This document shows, piece after piece, positions 7,263 to 24,379 of a DNA stretch of 64,000 nucleotides. How positions within the stretch are numbered: position 1 is the first letter of the stretch; every line of letters starts with the position of its first letter. The notes beneath the pieces were generated by a model. It saw only the letters and a program-made list of their open reading frames with translations, searched no databases and had not been told where the DNA came from. Both the position numbers and the translations under genes were made by a program. Source of the stretch: Cohnella panacarvi Gsoil 349 (GTDB taxonomy: Bacteria > Bacillota > Bacilli > Paenibacillales > Paenibacillaceae); the NCBI RefSeq assembly GCF_000515335.1, contig NZ_KI911563.1, positions 4,601,233 to 4,665,232 of the forward strand, written 5' to 3'.

Positions 7263-7285
7263 GCCGTGTCGTACAATACGCAAAC

Positions 7286-7321
7286 GGAAGACTCCTTGTG
7301 CCGGAGTCTTCCGTTTTTTTG
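7286..7321 (+). terminator. Intrinsic terminator after yqfL
   Basis: GGAAGACTCC (7286-7295) and GGAGTCTTCC (7303-7312) form a perfect 10-bp stem followed by a T run. It lies between convergent operons; on the minus strand the stem is followed only by GTTTG, so it may be weaker in that direction. Confidence 0.9.
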
Positions 7322-7327
7322 TTGCGT

Positions 7328-8908
7328 CTATTTCTCCCGTTGAATCCGATAAAGCTTCCACAACCCGCCGAACTCCCGCTCGAGTTCTACCCATTCCGCG
7401 CCTTTCTCGTATAGATCGGGGTATTGCATGTTAATGGTGCTCTGTACGTTGTTGAGCGGCTTCGGAATGAGAATGTAGTCGATGGCATAATCGAGAGGGC
7501 GAAGCACCGCATCGCGGAAATCGTAGTCGCTCGTAATCAAATATTTCCTCGGCTCGCGGCTGTTCACGAGGATCGTGAACGCGGAAGCGGAGTCCGTCAA
7601 GACCGTACCGTCGATCGATACTTCGATCCACCTCGCAAGGTCTCTTTCCACGAGCTGTCTTTGGTAATGCTCGTTCGTCGTCTTGATCGTCAAGTAGTTG
7701 TTCTCGTCCGGGGCGATGTTCGGATTCGTCATCGCGTAGCCGAGCATGACAGCGGAGACGACCAGGCTTCCCGCTAATATGGCGAACGAGGTTCGCCGCA
7801 GCCGTAAGCCGACCCGGTTCATCTCGTATGGAATCCAGGCGACGACGACGGGGAATACGTACATGAAGTAACGAAACCAACCGAACGAAGTTTGACGCAG
7901 CAGCAGCAAGTATTGCAAGCCCGGCACCGCGCAGAACAGCAGCAGCAGCACCGCGGTATCCCAATCGCGCAGACGGCCCGTTATCGTTCGTACGATCAAG
8001 ACCCCGAGCAGCGGCACGGAGTACCAGAACGTCTTCTCGAACACGAATTGCAATATCGTCCACGGGGTACGGAAAATGCGTTGGAATTGCTCGTCGTTCT
8101 TCAGGACGAGCGCCGCGGCATCGTTGGAATATTCCGAGTTGAGGAAGTAAAACGGATTACCCATGATCGAGTAGTTGAAAAACAGCCATAACGCGGAGGA
8201 GAATACGATCGGAAGCAGAACGAGCACCGATGTCGCTTCCGATTTATGCCACTTTTCCTTCCAGGAATATTCTTTGTCCCGTTGCATCAGGTAAACGACG
8301 ATGAATATGGACGCCGCGAACGAGAACCCGAACGGTACGGCCTCGTATCGCGTCCAGAAGGCGAAGGCAAGCGCGAAGGCGGCCACGACCAAACTGCCGA
8401 TCGCGCGAAAGCGAATCCAGACGCAGAACCGCGTGATCGCTAGAATCAAGAAGAACATATAAGGAACGTCGCTTAGTCCGTTAGCTCCGAACAGGAACAT
8501 GAACGGATTGAGTCCGTACAGGAGCGCGATCGTCAGGCTCATGGCGACGGACATGTCGAATTTGCGTCCGGTGCGGAACAGCAGCACGGCCGTCGCGCCG
8601 GCGAACAGGCTCGTTAGGAGAATGCCGGCGAGCGCCGACGAAGCCAGCGGCGGGTACAACGGATAGAACAGCAGGAAGAACAGCTCCAGGAAGCTCGGAA
8701 GCGGGTTCCAAATGAAGCCGATCGCCCCCAAGTGCGGATCGCGGCTGTATAACACATAGAACGCGTTCGCGACGCGGCTGATCGCGTCCGAATGCAGGAA
8801 TCCGATGACATGGCTTACGTAGTATCCCGCAGCGAATTCGATCGCGAAAATGCCGATAAAGAGCATCCATGCCACTCGGTTCGTTCGTTTGCGGATTTCG
8901 GTAGTCAA
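7328..8908 (-). CDS. Multi-pass GT39-like glycosyltransferase (GT-C fold)
   Basis: A 526-residue integral membrane protein with about ten hydrophobic segments. A first helix (about 13-33) is followed by an outer loop, HSDAISRVANAFYVLYSRDP, whose acidic His-Ser-Asp resembles the catalytic loop of GT-C enzymes that use polyprenyl-phosphate sugars. A soluble C-terminal part (about 400-526) probably faces outside. The exact family (GT39/PMT-like versus another GT-C group) is inferred from topology. It is the last gene of the leftward operon and overlaps gtrA at an ATGA junction. With the upstream GtrB-like synthase and GtrA it would form a three-part system adding sugars, probably mannose, outside the membrane. 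Confidence 0.75.
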   Translation of the reverse strand: MTTEIRKRTNRVAWMLFIGIFAIEFAAGYYVSHVIGFLHSDAISRVANAFYVLYSRDPHLGAIGFIWNPLPSFLELFFLLFYPLYPPLASSALAGILLTSLFAGATAVLLFRTGRKFDMSVAMSLTIALLYGLNPFMFLFGANGLSDVPYMFFLILAITRFCVWIRFRAIGSLVVAAFALAFAFWTRYEAVPFGFSFAASIFIVVYLMQRDKEYSWKEKWHKSEATSVLVLLPIVFSSALWLFFNYSIMGNPFYFLNSEYSNDAAALVLKNDEQFQRIFRTPWTILQFVFEKTFWYSVPLLGVLIVRTITGRLRDWDTAVLLLLFCAVPGLQYLLLLRQTSFGWFRYFMYVFPVVVAWIPYEMNRVGLRLRRTSFAILAGSLVVSAVMLGYAMTNPNIAPDENNYLTIKTTNEHYQRQLVERDLARWIEVSIDGTVLTDSASAFTILVNSREPRKYLITSDYDFRDAVLRPLDYAIDYILIPKPLNNVQSTINMQYPDLYEKGAEWVELEREFGGLWKLYRIQREK

Positions 8909-9342
8909 GGTCGACCTCCCCGTTCGTTCTTAGTCGTCCCGGGCGCCCGTTCCTTGAACGTCCATGTCCGGTTGAAATAATAGTTGCTCACCGGCACGAT
9001 GACCGTAACCGCGGCTTGGCCGAGCAGATACGGCCATCCAATCGCGTCGACGATCGCATACATGATGGCGGTGTTCAATACGAGCCCGGACGTCGAGACG
9101 ACCGCGTATCTGGCGAAGCTTCCGGGCGCGGGGGAAGCGGCCGATTTCGAGAACGTCCAATGACGGTTTAAGTAGTATGACACGACGACGACGAGCAGGA
9201 AGCCGATCGCTGACGAAAGGACGGCGGGCAATTCAGCCGCTTCCACGAGGAAGATCAGCGAGGCAAAATGCAGCAGCGTGCCGAGCGCGCCGACGACGGC
9301 GTACTTGACGAATGGGCTCCGAAGGGCACGATCAATATTCAT
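8905..9342 (-). CDS. GtrA family membrane protein (lipid-linked sugar flippase)
   Basis: A 145-residue protein with four transmembrane helices. The GtrA signatures are KYAVVGALGTLLHF in helix 1, SYYLNRHWTF after helix 2 and NYYFNRTWTFKE near the C-terminus. GtrA proteins are thought to flip undecaprenyl-phosphate-linked sugars to the outer leaflet. It overlaps the GtrB-like gene upstream by 11 bases and the GT39-like gene downstream by four. Full length. Confidence 0.9.
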   Translation of the reverse strand: MNIDRALRSPFVKYAVVGALGTLLHFASLIFLVEAAELPAVLSSAIGFLLVVVVSYYLNRHWTFSKSAASPAPGSFARYAVVSTSGLVLNTAIMYAIVDAIGWPYLLGQAAVTVIVPVSNYYFNRTWTFKERAPGTTKNERGGRP

Positions 9343-10309
9343 GCGAGCGGGCTCCGATCGGTACGGTGCGAGATTCGTTCGCGAGCTTCTCGGAGATCAA
9401 ATAGCGCGGCCGGCCCTTCACTTCATGATAGATCGCGGCGATATATTCGCCGACGACCCCGATGGACAGCATGATGACGCCTCCGATGAACAATTGCAGC
9501 AGAATGACCGTCGTAAATCCGGTCACGGCGCCCAGGAATAGCTTGCGCCACAGCGTGTGAATGCCGAGAGCGACGGCCCCGAGCGAGAAGAGCACCCCGA
9601 ACGCGCTGACGATCCGAAGCGGCACCGTAGAGAAGGAGACGATCGATTCGACCGCGAGCCCGGTCAGCTTGACGAATCCCCACCGGCTGGCGCCGGATTC
9701 GCGAGGCGGCACGTGGAACGGAATCGACTTCCGCCGGAAACCGATCCAGGCGGTCATCCCGCGGAAGAACGTCTTCCTTTCCTTCAACCCGCGCCATGCC
9801 TGCACGACTTTACCGTCGAGAAGCTTATAGTCGGACGCGTTTTTCAAGTCGAAACCGGCCAGCCGGTTCAACATGCCGTAGAACAGGCTAGCGCCGGCTT
9901 TTTTGAACATCGGTTCTTTGCCGCGGCTCTCCTTCACGCATTCGACGATATCGTAGCCCTCGTCGCGCCAAGAGCGAATCATCTCGGGGATGAGCTCGGG
10001 CGGATGCTGCAGATCCCCGTCCATTACGATGACCGCGTTGCCTGCAGCATGCTCCAGACCCGCGCATAGCGCGAGCTCCTTGCCGAAGTTACGGCTAAGC
10101 CGCAGCGCCTTCAGCTCCGGGATCTCTTGCGGCAAGCTTTGCAGCGCGAGCCAGGTCGCGTCTGTCGAACCGTCGTCGACGACGATCAATTCGAATGGCA
10201 ACCGGGTTAGCCGAATGTAACCGGCGATCGCGAGCAAAGAATCTCTGAGGTGCAGTTCCTCGTTATACATTGGAATGAGAACGGATATTTCGGGCGCCGG
10301 GCGGTACAT
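9332..10309 (-). CDS. GT2 polyprenyl-phosphate sugar synthase (DPM1/GtrB/ArnC-like)
   Basis: Transfers a sugar from a nucleotide donor to undecaprenyl phosphate on the cytoplasmic face. The N-terminal GT2 domain has SVLIPMYNEE, VVDDGSTDATW and the metal-binding VMDGDLQHPPE, followed by NASDYKLLD. Two transmembrane helices lie after about residue 230 and another near 280. At 325 residues it matches GtrB/DPM-type enzymes. ManC in the same operon makes GDP-mannose, so mannose is the likely sugar; this is inference. It starts 27 bases after the polymer synthase. Confidence 0.9.
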   Translation of the reverse strand: MYRPAPEISVLIPMYNEELHLRDSLLAIAGYIRLTRLPFELIVVDDGSTDATWLALQSLPQEIPELKALRLSRNFGKELALCAGLEHAAGNAVIVMDGDLQHPPELIPEMIRSWRDEGYDIVECVKESRGKEPMFKKAGASLFYGMLNRLAGFDLKNASDYKLLDGKVVQAWRGLKERKTFFRGMTAWIGFRRKSIPFHVPPRESGASRWGFVKLTGLAVESIVSFSTVPLRIVSAFGVLFSLGAVALGIHTLWRKLFLGAVTGFTTVILLQLFIGGVIMLSIGVVGEYIAAIYHEVKGRPRYLISEKLANESRTVPIGARSHEY

Positions 10310-10336
10310 TGGCGATCACTCCCGTATCGATTTGAA

Positions 10337-12730
10337 TTAATTGAAGCTTGCCGGAGGATGCTCGTCATGATCTAAGTGATGATCTTCGGACAATCCGTGC
10401 ACGGTTTTCTCCCAATAGAACGGCTTCGTAATGAGCTGCCATGCCGCTTTCATCGCGGCGATGCTCATGAGCACCCAATAGAGCGGCGTAAGCAGCGTTG
10501 TGCGGACGAGACTGTACGAGAATCGGCGATCGCCTTTCGATTCGAGCGCGTGGATAACCCAGTACACGCCGGCGGCGCTGCTGAACACGAACAAGAAGTT
10601 GGCGATATAGAATTCCGCCGACGCCATGTAGTAGATCCCGTCAGGGAAGAACAAGCTGATCCATTCGGCATGGAAACCGTACCAGAACAGGATCATCGAC
10701 CAGAATATCGGGTTGAGCAGCGGCAGCAGAGGCGTGGCCAGCACCATGACATGGAAGCCGAGGAAGCCGCGCAAGCCGAGCTCGCGATAAAGGCGAAACG
10801 GGTGGCGCATATGGACAAGCCACGTTTGCATGTAGCCCTTGATCCAGCGCGACCGCTGCCGGATCCAGTTGCCGACGCGGCTGTTCGCCTCTTCCCAAGT
10901 CCTCGAGTCGACGATCGCCGTCTTGTAGCCTGCTTTGTACAGCCGGATGCCAAGATCCGCGTCCTCGGTAACGTTATACGGGTCCCAGGCGTTCAATTTT
11001 TTCAGAACATCGGTCTTGAAGTGGTTGGACGTGCCGCCGAGCGGAATCGGGATATTCAGCTTCATGATGCCGGGAAGCAGCAATTCGAACCACATGCTGT
11101 ACTCCTGGGTGAACCACTTCGTCAGCAGGTTCTGGCCGCTGTTGAAGTAATTCAGCTTCGCTTGCACGCAGGCGGTGTTCTCGTCGCACGCCTTGAAAGT
11201 CAGGTACACTTTCTTCAGCTGGTCCGGATCGGGCCGGTCTTCCGCGTCGTAGATGACGACGATGTCCCCGCGGGCTCTGATTAGGCCGAAGTTGCAAGCC
11301 TTCGGCTTCGTCTTCGGAAGGCTGTCCGGCACGACGAGCACCGTATAATACGGCGGCAGCTTCATGTTCTTGAGAAGCTCCTGGGCTTCGATATCGTCGT
11401 TCTCGATCAGCAGGCGGACGTCGAGCTTCGCCTTCGGATAGTCGAGCCGCTCCAAATTCCGGATCAATTGCGGAATAACGTCGCTTTCCTTGTACATGGG
11501 CACGAGAATCGTATAGACGGGCAATGCCTTCTCGTCGATCTCTTGGAGCGCCTTTATATCGAAACGATACTGCGAATCGCTTCTGGAGCCGTACATAATG
11601 ATAGCGAACCGGAACAGGGTCATTAGAAAATACAATAGCTGCACCGCGACGTTCATCAGGATTAACGTCCCAAGCCAGTTCCACGCGAGACCGCCGGCCG
11701 CCGCGGCGACCGTCAGGAAGATCCCGACGAGCTGTTTGCGCGTGAAGGTGACGTTCGCCGAGTTGTGCGGTTGTTCGGTCGCGAGCTTAGAGGTACTTGT
11801 CTCGAGCATCTCGTTGCCGTACGCTTCCGTCCAGAACGCCTCCATCTCGTTCTTCGTCGCAAGTACTTGCTCCGCGGGCAGTCCTAGAATTTCCTCCAGC
11901 GCGATGCGATTCTCCTCCGATAACGGTTCGTTGACCGCGACGAGGAATCGGTTGTCGAACCGCTGCAGCAGGACGACGCCGAATTGCCGGGCGACCGGCT
12001 CGGGGAGTTTATCGGACGTATCGAAGTCATGTTCGGCGCCGATTCGGCCCAAGTTGTTCTGGGTGGCGATCGCCCGGTACAATTGTTCGGGCTCGAGGAA
12101 CTGCAGCGACAGCAGGATATCGCCCAGCATGCCGCCGCTCTTGCGCTGGAACGAAAGAGCTTTCTCTAATTGCTCGCGGGTCAGTTGACCCGTCTGCACG
12201 AGCATGTCGCCAAGCCGGCCTTTCGGCGGGGCGTTCGTGACGTACGGCAACAACTGCTCTGCGTTCACGTAACCAAGGTCGAGCAGAATGTCGCCCAGTC
12301 GCCCGCCGACCGCTTGTTGTCTCTCGATGGCCGTCTCCAGTTGAGAGGAGGTAATCAAGCCGCTGACGATCAGCGCTTCTCCAAGCTTGGCGCGAGGGGC
12401 AGCGGGAGCGGAATCGTTGCTTGAGCGGGAAGGAGCGACCAGCGTCTCGGCGGTCGCAGCGATCCCGGAGCCGAGGACCGGAGGATGCCCGTCGACTGCC
12501 GGACCGTTCGGCTCTTCCGCTCGAAAAACCTGTATGCGCATTCGAGCGGCAAGAATGCGCCGTTTCAGCTCTTCGGTCTCGGATTCGAGCCGCATGAGCG
12601 AGATCTTCTGATGCGCGCGTTGGCGCGCAAGCGCGCTTCGCGTATCGTGCAGCTCGCGCTCCGCCTCGCGCAATCGTGTCATCTCTTCGTTAGAGAAGAG
12701 TCCGGCGATCCGGCGTTTCAGCGCCTTCAT
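10337..12730 (-). CDS. Membrane GT2 polysaccharide synthase with N-terminal MshEN-type (c-di-GMP receptor-like) repeats
   Basis: A 797-residue fusion. Residues 1-70 are a charged coiled-coil segment. Residues 115-224 hold four copies of a 24-residue MshEN/GspE-N motif: KLGEALIVSGLITSSQ (115), RLGDILLDLGYVNAEQ (144), RLGDMLVQTGQLTREQ (172) and MLGDILLSLQFLEPEQ (201). Transmembrane helices lie at about 334-378. A processive GT2 domain follows with DAED (495-498), TED (588-590) and QRSRW (625-629), then three or four more helices at about 652-765. This matches cellulose/PNAG-type synthases that extrude polymer. MshEN domains of this consensus are known cyclic-di-GMP receptors, so allosteric control is likely. 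It overlaps the upstream small gene at ATGA and lies downstream of a BcsB-like gene. Confidence 0.88.
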   Translation of the reverse strand: MKALKRRIAGLFSNEEMTRLREAERELHDTRSALARQRAHQKISLMRLESETEELKRRILAARMRIQVFRAEEPNGPAVDGHPPVLGSGIAATAETLVAPSRSSNDSAPAAPRAKLGEALIVSGLITSSQLETAIERQQAVGGRLGDILLDLGYVNAEQLLPYVTNAPPKGRLGDMLVQTGQLTREQLEKALSFQRKSGGMLGDILLSLQFLEPEQLYRAIATQNNLGRIGAEHDFDTSDKLPEPVARQFGVVLLQRFDNRFLVAVNEPLSEENRIALEEILGLPAEQVLATKNEMEAFWTEAYGNEMLETSTSKLATEQPHNSANVTFTRKQLVGIFLTVAAAAGGLAWNWLGTLILMNVAVQLLYFLMTLFRFAIIMYGSRSDSQYRFDIKALQEIDEKALPVYTILVPMYKESDVIPQLIRNLERLDYPKAKLDVRLLIENDDIEAQELLKNMKLPPYYTVLVVPDSLPKTKPKACNFGLIRARGDIVVIYDAEDRPDPDQLKKVYLTFKACDENTACVQAKLNYFNSGQNLLTKWFTQEYSMWFELLLPGIMKLNIPIPLGGTSNHFKTDVLKKLNAWDPYNVTEDADLGIRLYKAGYKTAIVDSRTWEEANSRVGNWIRQRSRWIKGYMQTWLVHMRHPFRLYRELGLRGFLGFHVMVLATPLLPLLNPIFWSMILFWYGFHAEWISLFFPDGIYYMASAEFYIANFLFVFSSAAGVYWVIHALESKGDRRFSYSLVRTTLLTPLYWVLMSIAAMKAAWQLITKPFYWEKTVHGLSEDHHLDHDEHPPASFN

Positions 12731-12987
12731 GGCGAAGGTCTCTCCCGGTCCCGGGAGTCCCGAAGAAGAAGTTCCTCTTCCAAGAGCGATTCCAGTTGCT
12801 CGGCGAGGCGGTCGCGAAATTCGCGCTTCGTCTCATAGAACGAGAGGAACGCTTCCCGTTCTTCCCGGGCCGCAGTCCCGATCCGAAGAGCATGGTCGCG
12901 AATCGCCTCGATCCGTAATTCGACGCCATCCTTGCGGGCAAGGGTTGTCGGAACTGTTCTTGATCGGCTTCTATTCCTCCGGTTCAT
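12727..12987 (-). CDS. Small charged helical protein of the exopolysaccharide operon
   Basis: An 86-residue protein rich in Arg and Glu, predicted to be mostly a single amphipathic or coiled helix (about 20-78), without membrane segments or a signal. I do not recognise a family. It is judged real because GGGAGG precedes its ATG, it fills the space after the BcsB-like gene, and its TGA overlaps the ATG of the synthase (ATGA), a sign of translational coupling. The synthase also begins with a charged coiled coil, so the two could interact; that is speculation. Confidence 0.65.
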   Translation of the reverse strand: MNRRNRSRSRTVPTTLARKDGVELRIEAIRDHALRIGTAAREEREAFLSFYETKREFRDRLAEQLESLLEEELLLRDSRDRERPSP

Positions 12988-13034
12988 GGAATCGCGATCC
13001 CTCCCGTCTTTCGATTTCGTTGGCCCGGTTCATC

Positions 13035-15212
13035 TTAAGAGCCGTTCCGGCGGATTTTGCGAGCGTATAGCAGCAATGCGGTAATCATGACGATAAGCGC
13101 GCCGAGGAATGCATATTGTCCGTTAGGGAGCTCGCGCGTGGTCCGATCGGCTTTCGACTGCGGCACGCTCGGATCTCTGAGGTCCGCCGTGCCCGGGAAA
13201 GCATGCACTTGATTCCTGACGTCGATCACCACGACGCGGCCGGTAACGGACCCGCTGGCGGCAGGATCGGATAGCGCTCTTCCGATATAAGTCATTTCTT
13301 CGGGACCCGTGGCGGTTACGAGCAGGACGCTTCGTCCCTGGCTGATCGGAGATTCCGTCAATTGCATCACAGCGGAGTCTTGCGATAGTTCCTTCAATAT
13401 CGTCACGAGATCGGACTGCGAGGAGACGCGATCATCCTCGAACGTTACGTAGCTGGCGCCGAAGCCGTTCAGAGTCGCCGGCAAGGCGGATGACATGCCT
13501 ACGTAGACGACGTTCCGGTCCGTTAGCTTCGCCTGAAGATCCGGATCGTCCGCATCGGCCAGCGCAATGTCCGAATCGCTTCCGATCGGCATGCCGGTAC
13601 GGGCGAGCAACGTCATGGCCGCGACCAATTCCGTCGTTGTCTTCCCGCCCATGACGATCGTCGTGTCTCTCCACTCATTGCCGGATACGAACGGGAACGG
13701 TAACGAGTCGAGGTTGTAGTTCTCGCGTTTATCCGGCGTGAACGTGAAATAGGAAGTTTTGTCGACCAGCGCCCAATCTCCCATGAGATTCTCCGAGGAG
13801 CATGCGGTGTTCTGTTCATGCTGGTCGGAACCGCTCGTCGGGTTGACGAATTGGAATCGCACCTCGATGTTCAACCCGCGGCTTGCGCCGATCACGGAAG
13901 GATCAAGGCGGATATCGATTTCCCCGCCCTCGCTCGTGCGTTCCAACAAGTTCACGCTTTGAACGGGCGTTCCGTTAAGGAACACCTTCATAACCGATTT
14001 ATTATATAGAATCGACTTGGAATGCTTATACTTCAAGTGAAGCGTCGCGCCATTGTTCAAGTCCCAGTTGTTGGGGATCGGATAATAGATCGAAGAACCT
14101 CCTTGGAGGACGTCCTCGGTAACCAGATTGCCGTACCCCAGACTCTCGAACGTCAGCACGTAGGTCTTGTCGGTAGTTCCGTCCGCATCCGATGTCGAAT
14201 TCGGCAGCTTGTCCGGGATGACGGTGAAACCGCCTTGCAATTGCTTGTACAGCGTATCGGTCGTCAGAATCTCGGCGCCTCGCACGAGCTTGTCGCCTTC
14301 GCCGGTGACGACCAAGATCGTTCTTCCCTCATGCCAAGGCGACTCGGCCACGCCGATAATGCCTTGGGACGCTAAGGCGGCGCCGTCCGGACGGGATGCG
14401 GCGAATGCGTCCATCGCGCGGTGGCCTAATCCGTTCCAGCGATCGCCTGCGCCGATCCAGATGGCGGATGAACCGGACAAAACCGCATCCGTTACTTCGG
14501 ACTCCGCATAGATCGGCGTCCGCAGCAGCTCGTTGGGAGACTGGGAAGCGAGAAACTGGGACAATCGCGCCGCCGCTTTGAATTCCGACTGTTCGATATC
14601 GTCGGGGACGATCAGGATCGTCTGGACCGGCTTCTCCGACCCGCGAGCCAGAAAAGGGCTCGGGTAAATCGTCAGATCCGCTTCGGAGCCGGCGTCCGCG
14701 ATCTTCAGGTTGATGCGGGTTTCCCTGTCTATCGTGAGCCAGGCGGAGCTATTCTGAGGATCTTCGCATACCGCCGCGTTGACCTTCATCTTGGCCCAGA
14801 ACGACAGCTTATGGAATCCGGGCTTAAGATCGAATGAGGAAATGTCGATTTTCCAGTCGGTTACTGTCGTATTCGTATGATCCAACGCGGTACTGGAAAT
14901 CGGAATGTCGTCCAGCAGGATGGTGAGCGTCGAGTAATCCGGGTGCAGCGTCGGAGAGTGGGAGAAGCTGACATCGATCGAAGAGCCGGGCAAGACGGTT
15001 CGGTTTTTGCCGATTTCGAAATAAGCGTCTTGTTTGGCGCTGTCGCCTTTGAATACGCGGTCCTCGTTGAACGCGGTAAGCAATTCCCGATTTCCCGAGG
15101 AGGCAGCGGGCGCGGATGCGGATGTCGACGGTTCCGCGAAGGCGGAAACGGGTGAGACGAGTAAGACGAATAGAATGACTGCATGGAGCCAATAAGCGTG
15201 CTTGCGGTTCAT
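13035..15212 (-). CDS. BcsB/YdaN-like membrane-anchored polysaccharide export subunit
   Basis: A 725-residue exported protein. A signal peptide (about 1-27) is followed by a Ser/Ala-rich linker and two BcsB-type carbohydrate-binding/flavodoxin-like units. A C-terminal transmembrane helix (about 700-719) ends in ARKIRRNGS. BcsB partners the catalytic synthase and guides the growing glycan outside the membrane; B. subtilis YdaN is the closest known context. The start is set at 15212 because AAAGGAGG lies directly before it and the signal peptide begins there; an earlier in-frame ATG at 15260 lacks these. It is 14 bases after the GGDEF-like gene. Confidence 0.82.
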   Translation of the reverse strand: MNRKHAYWLHAVILFVLLVSPVSAFAEPSTSASAPAASSGNRELLTAFNEDRVFKGDSAKQDAYFEIGKNRTVLPGSSIDVSFSHSPTLHPDYSTLTILLDDIPISSTALDHTNTTVTDWKIDISSFDLKPGFHKLSFWAKMKVNAAVCEDPQNSSAWLTIDRETRINLKIADAGSEADLTIYPSPFLARGSEKPVQTILIVPDDIEQSEFKAAARLSQFLASQSPNELLRTPIYAESEVTDAVLSGSSAIWIGAGDRWNGLGHRAMDAFAASRPDGAALASQGIIGVAESPWHEGRTILVVTGEGDKLVRGAEILTTDTLYKQLQGGFTVIPDKLPNSTSDADGTTDKTYVLTFESLGYGNLVTEDVLQGGSSIYYPIPNNWDLNNGATLHLKYKHSKSILYNKSVMKVFLNGTPVQSVNLLERTSEGGEIDIRLDPSVIGASRGLNIEVRFQFVNPTSGSDQHEQNTACSSENLMGDWALVDKTSYFTFTPDKRENYNLDSLPFPFVSGNEWRDTTIVMGGKTTTELVAAMTLLARTGMPIGSDSDIALADADDPDLQAKLTDRNVVYVGMSSALPATLNGFGASYVTFEDDRVSSQSDLVTILKELSQDSAVMQLTESPISQGRSVLLVTATGPEEMTYIGRALSDPAASGSVTGRVVVIDVRNQVHAFPGTADLRDPSVPQSKADRTTRELPNGQYAFLGALIVMITALLLYARKIRRNGS

Positions 15213-15226
15213 GCGCGCGCCTCCTT

Positions 15227-16108
15227 TCAAGGGGATTCGGGGGATTCGATGCTGCTCCACGATAACGCGGTCCGGGCTTGCTCCATCAGCGACCTTGCTT
15301 CGATGCCGTCACCGGGACATTCCGCGAACCCGAACCGAAGCTTAAGCTTGACCGAAGATTCGCGGCGCGGGCGAGTCATCTGCAGCTCGAACAGCTTGCG
15401 CGTTAACGTCTCGCGAATGTTGTCGGCCTCGTCAGGATCGGAACCGGCGATCACGCCCGCCAGCAACGATTCGCCGACTTGCGCTTTCGTCTCCGGCCGG
15501 ACCTCCGCGAACCATTCGGCCACCGCGTTTAGAATCGCCGTCGCTTGTTCGATGCCGAATAGAAGCTTGAACTCCCGGAAGTGTTCGATTTGAACGAGGA
15601 CGATCCGGAACGTGCTGCGATCCCTTAGAGAGGCGATAACGCGTTCTTCGACTTTATATAGAAAGGCGTTGGTACTCGTATAGCCGTGCTGGTCGTCCAC
15701 GAGACATGCGCCGACGCTCTGCTGGCGATCGGAGGGTTCGCTCCCGAAGAGAGTGGTTTCCAGCCCCGGTATCTCTCCGCCGGAAGCGCGCGGAAGCGCG
15801 CCGAGCAACGTAAGAGCCGGGAATACGAAAAGCCAGATCAGCTCGTTCCACCCGATTGCGGTCGGCTGCGCGCTCCATTCCGACAGGTAATACAAATATC
15901 CGCCGAACGCGGCCAGAGCGACCGCGCAGAGGACGAGTCCCTCGGCGGCTTTCCTGAAAGACGCGTATACGAACAAGACGACGGCTGCCGCGGTCAGCGC
16001 GGCGTTATGCGAATGCAAAGGATAGGTTACGTAGGCGTATATGCCGAGGAGTACGATCAAGATGAATTGAAGAAAGCGGACGACGAGCCGTCGTTCGTTA
16101 TTAAGCAT
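15227..16108 (-). CDS. Membrane protein with degenerate GGDEF domain (YdaK-like)
   Basis: A 293-residue protein with four transmembrane helices (about 9-28, 35-50, 56-75, 88-105) and a cytosolic GGDEF-fold domain (about 132-285). The catalytic signature is lost: VGESLL at 211-216 stands where GGDEF is expected. The substrate-binding DxxxFKxxND region has become EHFREFKLLFG, and the I-site position reads RPET instead of RxxD. It is therefore unlikely to be an active diguanylate cyclase and may be a cyclic-di-GMP sensor or scaffold, as proposed for B. subtilis YdaK. The ATG at 16108 is preceded by GAAAGGGA; a TTG at 16117 is an alternative. Confidence 0.8.
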   Translation of the reverse strand: MLNNERRLVVRFLQFILIVLLGIYAYVTYPLHSHNAALTAAAVVLFVYASFRKAAEGLVLCAVALAAFGGYLYYLSEWSAQPTAIGWNELIWLFVFPALTLLGALPRASGGEIPGLETTLFGSEPSDRQQSVGACLVDDQHGYTSTNAFLYKVEERVIASLRDRSTFRIVLVQIEHFREFKLLFGIEQATAILNAVAEWFAEVRPETKAQVGESLLAGVIAGSDPDEADNIRETLTRKLFELQMTRPRRESSVKLKLRFGFAECPGDGIEARSLMEQARTALSWSSIESPESP

Positions 16109-16159
16109 GCACAACAATCCCTTTCAATGGAACCAATATCGGTAAGGTTGACGGTCCGC

Positions 16160-17170
16160 CTACCAGTCTACGGCATCCTTAATGCGGATTTGCTCGATGA
16201 GAGGTTTGATTTGATGCGAGACGCTCCTGTCGCAGATGAGAATGCCTTCCGGACTGGCGACGACGACCGCATTCGAAATTCCGGCTACGACGATCGGAAC
16301 GTTCAATTGGTTGATAACGAAAGTACCGGCGCTTCGGTCGTCCTTAATGAAGTTCCGGGTGTCGTTTTCCCCTAGCACGCGCACGATGTCTTTCCAGGTG
16401 CCGAGATCCGTCCATTCGCCTTCATAGCGGACGCAAATCATGTTCTTCTCGGTTTCGGTTACCATGTAGTCGAAGCTGATCCGGGGCATCGTGTCGTAGC
16501 GCGACTTCAGTTTCGCGTATTGGAGCGGACGGTTCATTCCGGTCAAAACGCCGAGTATGTACGCGAGACGGAAGGCGAAGATACCCCCGTTCCACAATGC
16601 GTCTTTCTCGATTAGTGCCGCCGCCGCGGCAAGTTCGGGCTTCTCGACGAAACGGTTTACGCGGCGAGCCGCGCATCCCGGAACCGGGTCGGATAAGATA
16701 TAACCGTATTTCTCCGATACTTCGCTTGGACGGATGCCGACAAGGCCTAAATTCGCTTCGCCGCGTTGGATGGATTCGTCAAGCCTGCCGAGCAAATCGT
16801 AATAGTCGCCGTCGGCGTGAGCGTCCACGGGAATGACGACGACGGTCTCGTCGGCAGACGTTCCGATATCCGATAAGTAGACGCTCGCGAGGGCGATCGC
16901 GGGGAACGTATCCCGACGCGAAGGTTCGAGGATCAACTGCGCCGTCGGTCCGAGCTGTTCGGCGAGCACCAGGGCTTGCGATTCTCCTCCTACGACGTAA
17001 AGATTCGATTCTCCGTATTTTTGGGCCAGTATCGACCAAGTTTTCTGCACCATGGAGCAGGATTCGCCTTTATCGTTTTTTACAACCTTCATATATTGTT
17101 TAGGCATGATATCGCTAGATAAAGGCCACAGCCGTTTGCCGTTTCCACCCGCCAGAATGATGATCTTCAT
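16160..17170 (-). CDS. manC: Mannose-1-phosphate guanylyltransferase
   Basis: Makes GDP-mannose from GTP and mannose-1-phosphate. The 336-residue nucleotidyltransferase begins MKIIILAGGNGKRLWPLS followed by the catalytic lysine in MPKQ. RFVEKPE and DALWNGGIFAF are the family sugar-binding motifs, and the C-terminal part reads GTWKDI and GILICDRSVSHQIKPL. There is no fused phosphomannose isomerase domain. The start at 17170 has GAGGTG upstream; an earlier in-frame ATG at 17203 adds a non-conserved tail. It is first in the operon and fixes the probable donor sugar for the downstream enzymes. Confidence 0.92.
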   Translation of the reverse strand: MKIIILAGGNGKRLWPLSSDIMPKQYMKVVKNDKGESCSMVQKTWSILAQKYGESNLYVVGGESQALVLAEQLGPTAQLILEPSRRDTFPAIALASVYLSDIGTSADETVVVIPVDAHADGDYYDLLGRLDESIQRGEANLGLVGIRPSEVSEKYGYILSDPVPGCAARRVNRFVEKPELAAAAALIEKDALWNGGIFAFRLAYILGVLTGMNRPLQYAKLKSRYDTMPRISFDYMVTETEKNMICVRYEGEWTDLGTWKDIVRVLGENDTRNFIKDDRSAGTFVINQLNVPIVVAGISNAVVVASPEGILICDRSVSHQIKPLIEQIRIKDAVDW

Positions 17171-17242: not shown

Positions 17243-17271
17243 ACTATAAATCGAATCTCCTCGCAAATCAA
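17243..17271 (-). promoter_or_regulatory. SigA-type promoter of the exopolysaccharide operon
   Basis: On the minus strand TTGATT (17271-17266), a 17-bp spacer and TATAGT (17248-17243), placing the start near 17236 and giving manC a leader of about 65 nt. A Spo0A-box-like TTTGTCGCA abuts the -35 upstream. Confidence 0.6.
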
Positions 17272-23895: not shown

Positions 23896-24379
23896 CCGGA
23901 AAGATTGACAGACAATCGCTGGTGGCTTCGCGCCACGAGAGGAAAGTCCGGGCTCCATAGGGCAGGATGCTGGATAACGTCCAGTCAGCGCGAGCTGAAG
24001 GATTAGGGCCACAGAAATGGACCGCCGATGACCACTCCCCACAAAGTGACGAAATGCTTCGAAGCATATTCCGATTACTTTGCGGGGGCCCCATAAGCGG
24101 GGAGGTGGAACAGGCAAGGATGGAACCGTGGTGTAAGAGACCACGAGGAGCACTGGTGACTTTGCTCCTGGTAAACCCCATCTGGAGCAAGACCTAGGAG
24201 AACGTAGCAGCCGCTTGCGGCTGCAGCCCTTGCCCGGGGTGCGTTCGGGTTGGTCGCTTGAGCCGTTCAGCAATGGACGGCCTAGAAAGATGATTGTCGC
24301 TTCCATACGTGGGAGGGTGGCGCAAGCTGTCCGCGATACCACCGGAAGTACAGAACCCGGCTTACGGCAATCTTTCCGG
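23896..24379 (+). ncRNA. rnpB: RNase P RNA, class A architecture
   Basis: Catalytic RNA of RNase P, which removes 5' leaders from pre-tRNA. Universal elements are present: GAGGAAAGTCCGGGCTCC, CACAGAAA, GGTAAACCCC, CTAGAAAGATGATTGTC and ACAGAACCCGGCTTA. The ends pair as a perfect 12-bp P1 (CCGGAAAGATTG at 23896 with CAATCTTTCCGG ending 24379). GGAGCAAGACC paired near CGCTTGAGCC, plus the P13/P14 hairpins (GTGGTGTAAGAGACCAC and the next stem), indicate the ancestral class A fold, not the class B fold of B. subtilis. The region is longer than the E. coli RNA, with extra sequence around 24035-24110. Ends are from pairing, not mapping. Confidence 0.95.

Follow-up and report, generated by a model that had tools for sequence, protein, structure and literature searches.

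A synthase and a GT-C-fold transferase as the constant pair of a putative c-di-GMP-controlled polysaccharide operon in Cohnella and other Bacillota

What is made by an operon that joins a processive polysaccharide synthase to the parts of a lipid-sugar transfer system, and which of its genes belong together? The question is raised by eight leftward open reading frames (ORFs) of Cohnella panacarvi Gsoil 349, which run from manC (16160-17170) to a membrane transferase gene (7328-8908) in the ORF list of a 64,000-nucleotide stretch of contig NZ_KI911563.1 (assembly GCF_000515335.1, positions 4,601,233 to 4,665,232), here termed the window. We consider it fairly probable that this operon makes a surface polysaccharide of the synthase type, controlled by cyclic diguanylate (c-di-GMP) and with its decoration outside the membrane built in. 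An earlier note on this DNA had listed eight leftward genes of named families with ATGA or short overlaps; all the ORFs are indeed present with the corresponding family matches, and the intergenic gaps in gene order (42, 14, 47, -4, 27, -11 and -4 bases, taking the manC start at 17170, the ATG behind GAGGTG, and the inner ATG of bcsB at 15212) make them, by spacing, a predicted operon. Pfam and NCBIfam searches across the eight proteins, in the same order, gave NTP_transferase, GGDEF, BcsB, no match, Glyco_trans_2_3 with MshEN, Glycos_transf_2, GtrA_DPMS_TM and a sub-cutoff PMT_2. The features are:

16160..17170, minus strand: manC-like mannose-1-phosphate guanylyltransferase of a single domain (NTP_transferase, 96.8 bits; start ATG 17170 by ribosome site)
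15227..16117, minus strand: ydaK-like membrane protein with a degenerate GGDEF domain (34 bits) that has lost its RxxD I-site (alignment with 21 ydaK-type relatives)
13035..15212, minus strand: bcsB-like extracytoplasmic, membrane-anchored subunit (PF03170, 163 bits; ORF open from 15260, ATG at 15212)
12727..12987, minus strand: small charged helical protein of 86 residues (no match in Pfam or NCBIfam)
10337..12730, minus strand: MshEN-GT2 processive synthase, with a helical N terminus, two MshEN units and a BcsA-like GT2 domain with membrane helices (Pfam/NCBIfam, alignment, predicted model)
12059..12388, minus strand: four MshEN half-motifs (residues 115, 144, 172 and 201), or two predicted c-di-GMP-binding units (motif scan)
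10835..11515, minus strand: GT2 catalytic core, D495, TED 588-590 and QxxRW 625-629 (invariant in 28 of 28 aligned relatives)
9332..10309, minus strand: GtrB-type polyprenyl-phosphate-sugar synthase (Synechocystis GtrB, 247 bits over residues 6-308)
8905..9342, minus strand: GtrA-type putative flippase (GtrA_DPMS_TM, 95.5 bits, cutoff 26.1)
7328..8908, minus strand: GT-C-fold transferase of an uncharacterised family, the GT39-like enzyme of the earlier note (predicted model and conserved residues)

The genes that belong together were sought by their neighbourhoods in other genomes. A scan of named genomes for synthase relatives, pattern-based and not exhaustive, gave 48 loci, reduced to 46 by dropping two matches of 24% and 23% (L077, L078); these range from Paenibacillus and Cohnella to Clostridium, Desulfosporosinus, Syntrophomonas and Lachnospiraceae, and with nine loci from further relatives (L090, a second copy of L068, being omitted) they form a set of 55. 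A GT-C gene of the window's family lies within 6 kb of the MshEN-GT2 synthase in 52 of them. Within the same distance a GtrB or dolichol-phosphate-mannose-synthase (DPMS)-type gene occurs in 38, manC in 28, BcsB in 22 and YdaK in five. No GT-C gene was found near the synthase in L060 and L075, both of which end at a contig edge, nor in L071 within 4.3 kb upstream and 10 kb downstream of a partial synthase ORF. Whole genomes gave the same picture: among 100 related genomes the synthase (above 600 bits) is present in 14, and the GT-C family (E up to 0.001) in exactly those 14, beside the synthase, and in none of the 86 others; among 398 Bacillota genomes the synthase is present in eight, and the GT-C family (E up to 1e-15) in seven of these and in none of the other 390. 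The eighth, G418, has a divergent GT-C (57 bits) adjoining the synthase, with BcsB before it. The two genome sets overlap in part, and relatives are not independent samples. One genome, G018, has a 40% MshEN-GT2 match with no detectable member of the GT-C family; the next ORF, a membrane protein of 470 residues with no Pfam hit, looks GT-C-like by eye. This co-occurrence leaves little room for chance, and the two halves of the operon belong together; judged from sequence, the synthase and the GT-C protein are the constant core of the system. The neighbourhood search proposed in the earlier note thus gave the expected association for MshEN-GT2 with GT-C and a far looser one for BcsB.

Several loci depart from the simple pair. 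GT-C genes stand as a tandem pair in L039, L041, L042, L045 and L048, and also in L032 and L051, which would fit the addition of two side sugars or of two linkages. Paenibacillus macquariensis (L043, 2913-15344) has two successive manC/MshEN-GT2/GtrB sets with a single GT-C gene. An exosortase EpsH-like protein of 801 residues adjoins the GT-C gene of the pair in G464 (L110, 11739-14144), and a GGDEF-EAL protein, recognised by eye, lies 4.4 kb after the pair in G418 (L109, 12156-14405).

What the two core proteins might do was approached through predicted models. That of the GT-C protein (predicted local distance difference test score, pLDDT, 92; predicted template modelling score, pTM, 0.92) superposes along its full length on ArnT (Z 19.8, root-mean-square deviation [rmsd] 4.8, 405 residues), tied with Pmt4 (Z 20.1, rmsd 4.8, 364 residues); a sequence search with the protein found no solved relative. 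The GT39-like label holds at the level of fold, common to Pmt4, while the PMT_2 match falls below its cutoff (23.3 versus 26.1 bits). Three residues just past the first helix, D41, R45 and N48, are invariant in 30 sequences, and in GT-C enzymes catalysis has been located in the loop after helix 1 (PMC11127046). With GtrB-type, GtrA-type and GT-C-fold proteins all present, the parallel that had been drawn between the second half of the operon and three-component Gtr systems is upheld.

The same folds also bear on another acceptor for the GT-C enzyme. Foldseek placed the protein C-mannosyltransferase DPY19 and oligosaccharyltransferases at the top for this model, Pmt4 is a protein O-mannosyltransferase, and teichoic acids of other bacteria receive sugars from GtrB-like systems (PMC7117936); the enzyme might then glycosylate a surface protein such as BcsB, or a teichoic acid, and share the operon since both products are wanted under shared conditions. 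We regard this as unlikely: in both genome sets, at the thresholds given, no family member turned up in a genome lacking the MshEN synthase, while teichoic acids and surface proteins occur generally. BcsB, moreover, is absent genome-wide in nine of the 14 relatives that have synthase and GT-C, which rules it out as a general acceptor.

The synthase model (pLDDT 78) resembles BcsA (Z 28.4, rmsd 3.3, 392 residues) and the mannosyltransferase PcManGT (Z 27.4, rmsd 3.8, 336 residues). A cellulose operon was considered and rejected, as TIGR03030 scores 45.5 bits against a cutoff of 699.1 and there is no PilZ hit. That the synthase has a complete catalytic set and a BcsA-like fold of its own speaks against a second polymerase or an initiator in the same operon, that is, a GT-C enzyme that builds a glucan outside from lipid-linked sugar or that primes or ends the chain. 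Such a role has a precedent of sorts in Lactobacillus johnsonii, where GtrA/GtrB-like genes are required for a homoglucan and an unusual route was proposed (PMC7117936), but the GT-C model lies near the single-sugar transferases ArnT and Pmt4, and we think it quite improbable. We continue with a synthase-made chain that the GT-C enzyme would decorate.

Which sugar might be added? Mannose had been proposed, by way of polyprenyl-phosphate-mannose. Among solved relatives the window's GtrB scores best with Synechocystis GtrB (247 bits), followed by ArnC (158) and dolichol-phosphate-mannose synthase (72), and the Synechocystis enzyme is glucose-specific (PMC4728340). On these similarities the mannose label for the side sugar is unsupported; of the proposal that a glycan is polymerised by the synthase and then mannosylated outside, the linkage of the two halves stands and the sugar does not. 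The donor-forming enzyme also differs between loci: a DPMS-type protein replaces GtrB in six clostridial loci and in three of Paenibacillaceae (L032, L069, L082), and that of C. drakei, the sole one compared with solved structures, is nearest dolichol-phosphate-mannose synthase (226 bits). By Pfam a GtrA domain is fused to the DPMS-type protein in four of the five scanned (L050, L051, L032 and L069, not L061); the label "fused" otherwise denotes similarity to two DPMS-type queries, and four of the nine so labelled lay outside the Pfam scan. ManC accompanies 18 of 30 rows with GtrB (the window included), five of nine with the DPMS type and six of 13 with neither, so that its presence does not track donor type and GDP-mannose is as likely to serve the backbone as the donor. 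The best solved relative of the window's ManC-like protein is mannose-1-phosphate guanylyltransferase 2x5s (123 bits).

Trees and distances indicate that the donor gene and the GT-C gene share a history. The trees, of a quick kind, covered the window and 51 of the 55 loci; they exclude L060, L071 and L075, where no GT-C was found, and L074, whose synthase is fragmented, and for C. faecalis (L069), whose synthase is split into two ORFs, the larger alone was used. Donor type requires six changes on the synthase tree and four on the GT-C tree, and presence of BcsB five and seven, respectively; these differences are small. The synthase tree has a supported group of the window with L031 and L069, though L069 is of the DPMS type, and the GT-C data reject that group (p 6.6e-5). 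Conversely, the GT-C tree gives no grounds to reject a clade of the three Paenibacillaceae DPMS-type rows (p 0.17), and the synthase tree rejects it (p 1.5e-4). In 25 Paenibacillales loci with GtrB, GtrB distances correlate with GT-C distances given the synthase (partial r 0.54, with 0 of 2000 permutations as high) and show no such relation to synthase distances given GT-C (partial r -0.05, 1331 of 2000), with the proviso that partial Mantel tests on tree-shaped data are liberal. Since GtrB distances track GT-C and not the synthase, the GT-C gene appears to travel with the donor gene; use of that donor by the GT-C enzyme would lead one to expect this. The GtrB/GtrA/GT-C set is thus probably an exchangeable decoration cassette, to be read with caution for long branches.

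The subunits outside this pair are more variable. The earlier note had taken a synthase/BcsB pair as the polymerising and exporting core; the absences of BcsB counted above overturn this, the constant pair being synthase and GT-C. A wider test found no BcsB in 21 of 28 genomes, a set in which 12 were picked for having none near the synthase, two (G018, G029) lack synthase plus GT-C and some are of unstated completeness; nine of 14 is the unpicked figure. For L065, a BcsB match of low score (50 bits) lies close to the synthase. BcsB usually adjoins the synthase in clostridial loci, and in L047 the YdaK and BcsB genes point away from it. BcsB is optional, outside the constant core. The solved BcsB matches the window's protein at 28 bits. 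The 86-residue protein has detected relatives in just two loci, L031 (40 bits) and L069 (31 bits), and other small ORFs hold its position in many Paenibacillus and Cohnella loci, a fast-varying small helical protein upstream of the synthase; its counterpart in L044 (9504-9746) matches DivIVA weakly (17 bits versus a cutoff of 28), a faint hint of polar placement.

If the accessory subunits vary, where is c-di-GMP read? In Bacillus subtilis YdaK is a c-di-GMP receptor through its I-site, which is needed (PMC7064775). The RxxD I-site is kept in 21 of 21 ydaK-type operons and lost in six of six MshEN loci with a YdaK-like gene (alignment; Fisher p 3e-6, the relatives not being independent); several of the 21 are near-identical, and their GT2 was taken as MshEN-free by its length (about 420-440 residues; split in L126). 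The window's synthase carries tandem 24-residue MshEN motifs five residues apart, 115/144 and 172/201, scoring 11, 10, 10 and 9 of 11, and its second unit aligns without gaps to Vibrio cholerae MshE (5htl). At least four half-motifs occur in 28 of 28 aligned synthases, counted without a shuffled control. MshEN is known to occur fused to glycosyltransferases (PMC5013675); in a paper on Paenibacillus type IV pili, the MshEN concerned is that of PilB (PMC9765702). Because the I-site is kept in the ydaK-type operons and gone in the MshEN loci, c-di-GMP sensing was probably handed over from YdaK to the MshEN units of the synthase. GGDEF matches number 18 in the window's genome; the operon supplies one of these, and two share a single reading frame. 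c-di-GMP is therefore very probably made in this host.

The loss of the I-site also touches the idea that the whole locus is a variant ydaJKLMN operon with passengers. The parallel to B. subtilis ydaKMN noted earlier holds for the joint presence of a GT2 protein, a BcsB-like subunit and a degenerate GGDEF protein, and for a link to c-di-GMP; BcsB and the YdaK-like gene are of the kind found in such operons, and a sister species has a complete one in the same chromosomal slot (G029, L079). The parallel fails in that the operon has no ydaJ or ydaL, a different synthase bearing MshEN, a YdaK without its I-site and an added GtrB/GtrA/GT-C module: Pfam found no GH8 (YdaJ) or DUF2334 (YdaL) gene among the eight, the rest of the genome not being searched, whereas both are in L079. 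With synthase and GT-C kept without YdaK or BcsB in most loci, we judge the passenger account to be very improbable. Apart from this, a GtrB-like gene (235 bits) stands behind a ydaK-type operon without MshEN in G016 (L116, 10600-11598).

Some relatives add control at the RNA level. The riboswitch scan covered 37 sources, namely the window and sets of 6, 7, 8, 8 and 7 loci, L114 duplicating L051. In Clostridium algifaecis, C. drakei and C. carboxidivorans (L049, L050, L052) a c-di-GMP-II riboswitch precedes the first operon ORF by 43-71 bases, and a c-di-GMP-I riboswitch lies 622 bases upstream of a long GT-C ORF in an Acetobacterium metagenome-assembled genome (L061), at a contig edge and with an intervening gene possible. 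A fifth find, a c-di-GMP-I-GGC riboswitch in G423 (L111, 10403-10487), is past the GT-C gene and before a TIG-domain protein of 763 residues, perhaps a secreted matrix protein; four of the five (L049, L050, L052, L061) therefore lead into the operon, out of 27 distinct loci that the scan covered outside Paenibacillales. In the three Clostridium species the operon, including its lipid-sugar gene, is probably under c-di-GMP control at the RNA level.

From gene order, co-occurrence, predicted folds, motifs, I-site loss, the riboswitches of some relatives and the shared evolution of GtrB and GT-C we infer the biochemical steps, the sugars and the polymer itself as follows. Binding of c-di-GMP to the two MshEN units would switch on the BcsA-like GT2 domain, which would polymerise a nucleotide sugar (perhaps GDP-mannose from ManC) and push the chain through its own membrane channel, to be taken over outside by BcsB where that is present. 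GtrB would load a sugar onto undecaprenyl phosphate, GtrA would turn the lipid-sugar outward, and the GT-C enzyme would move the sugar onto the emerging chain. The YdaK-like protein may have kept a structural or docking role after the loss of its c-di-GMP site, and exchange of the GtrB/GtrA/GT-C cassette would change the side sugar while the backbone stays constant.

Five observations weigh against this scheme. BcsB and the YdaK-like gene, central to the earlier model, are missing from most loci (present in 22 and five of 55). Of 52 rows, 13 lack a GtrB or DPMS gene above threshold at a distance of up to 6 kb, and there the lipid-sugar step must therefore be elsewhere or nonexistent. The Paenibacillaceae DPMS-type rows are long branches on the GT-C tree, with L069 and L082 flagged as possibly falsely joined. 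In the window's second MshEN unit, the latter half-motif departs from the pattern at two positions (R to M, G to Q). Finally, the window, L079 and the six MshEN loci scanned from Cohnella and Paenibacillus gave no riboswitch; with four in 27 loci elsewhere and none in the Paenibacillales scanned, RNA-level control is therefore not general.

More tentatively, as a reading slightly less likely than not, we propose a glycan system widespread in Bacillota: a fixed backbone from a c-di-GMP-gated synthase, a lipid-sugar cassette (GtrB/GtrA or DPMS-type, plus a dedicated GT-C) swapped between strains for the side sugar, and a sensor moved from the YdaK I-site to MshEN. If true, Gram-positive bacteria would have in it a counterpart, built on a synthase, to O-antigen seroconversion, and a GT-C family with no assigned function would gain a role. 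Polymers made by synthases are known to be altered outside the membrane chiefly by deacetylation, by acetylation and by addition of phosphoethanolamine, and decoration from polyprenyl-phosphate-sugar by a dedicated GT-C enzyme would be a new kind of tailoring for c-di-GMP exopolysaccharides. Examples of the known kinds of tailoring are given in PMC7710045. The exchange of sensors within similar operons makes the site of c-di-GMP reading testable by point changes. Most worth following are the synthase/GT-C partnership and the moved sensor; the mannose label is to be dropped for now.

How far have such systems been described? The Escherichia coli NfrB-NfrA system (N4 glycan receptor) likewise joins GT2 to MshEN, and NfrB establishes that a GT2-MshEN protein can act as a c-di-GMP-dependent polysaccharide synthase (PMC8669469, PMC8669472). 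It differs in that MshEN is C-terminal in NfrB and N-terminal in the window, in its outer-membrane NfrA and WecB, and in that the portions of these reports available to us describe no lipid-sugar module; an NfrB-type assignment was rejected for the window's synthase, in which MshEN precedes GT2 and PRK11234 (NfrB) scores 55 bits against a cutoff of 1170. The nfr cluster of Achromobacter has a BcsB homologue, so MshEN-GT2 with BcsB is already known, and there are rare Gram-positive NfrB homologues, in Eggerthella (PMC8669469, PMC8669472). Three-component GtrA/GtrB/GT-C glycosylation shares all three parts and the GT-C fold, with donor and roles as set out in PMC11127046, where such systems decorate O antigens of the Wzx/Wzy and ABC-transporter types; the window's set, unlike these, is placed inside a synthase operon and its presumed acceptor is a synthase-type polymer.

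A related c-di-GMP module of Streptococcus (Liu et al. 2020; PMC10333796), compared here by its description, has in one insertion a c-di-GMP gene, a Dpm1-GtrA hybrid, a cellulose-synthase-like protein and a large membrane protein. It has its own diguanylate cyclase, the large protein has 16 transmembrane segments compared with about 11 long helices counted on the model of the window's GT-C, and the accessible description includes no MshEN, BcsB or ManC. The earlier note's remark that no described system has both halves consequently does not stand as worded. An XrtG-associated cluster (L136) also has a fused GtrB-GtrA-type protein adjoining a GT2 synthase and large membrane proteins, and differs in its TIGR03111 synthase of 452 residues, its exosortase XrtG and its PTPS_related proteins. 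We found no paper on MshEN-GT2 with a GT-C or GtrA gene in Bacillota among open PMC titles and abstract beginnings; subscription literature lay outside this search, which leaves such absence unproven.

The operon's place in the chromosome had been read as an insertion into a conserved locus, between yqfL and yqxD-dnaG, and comparison within the genus agrees. The yqfL-dnaG gap is 673-1097 bases in 33 of 37 genomes (the window's own and 36 others) and 6.3, 8.1, 10.8 and 10.9 kb in the other four, one of which (G031) was measured from a broken yqfL copy; from these lengths the slot is real and reused. All four wide gaps hold a polysaccharide operon, the first being the window's own. Cohnella silvisoli (L031) has all eight genes in identical order, C. 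endophytica (L053) has manC, the synthase gene and a GT-C gene, the last of these inverted, and G029 (L079) has the ydaJKLMN-like operon of GH8, GGDEF, DUF2334, GT2 and BcsB. The slot is a real, recurrent site for polysaccharide operons of this class. Two further features flank the genes in the window:

7282..7316, no strand assigned: strong hairpin of 14 pairs with a T tail, a likely terminator between the last operon gene and convergent yqfL
17243..17271, minus strand: weak promoter-like site upstream of manC (9 of 12; such sites are about equally frequent in shuffled sequence)

In C. silvisoli the yqfL adjoining the operon is split into two ORFs (15483-16285), with a full-length copy on another contig (G031:C40). 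Elsewhere in the window, a bacterial RNase P class A RNA lies at 23900-24379 on the plus strand (249 bits).

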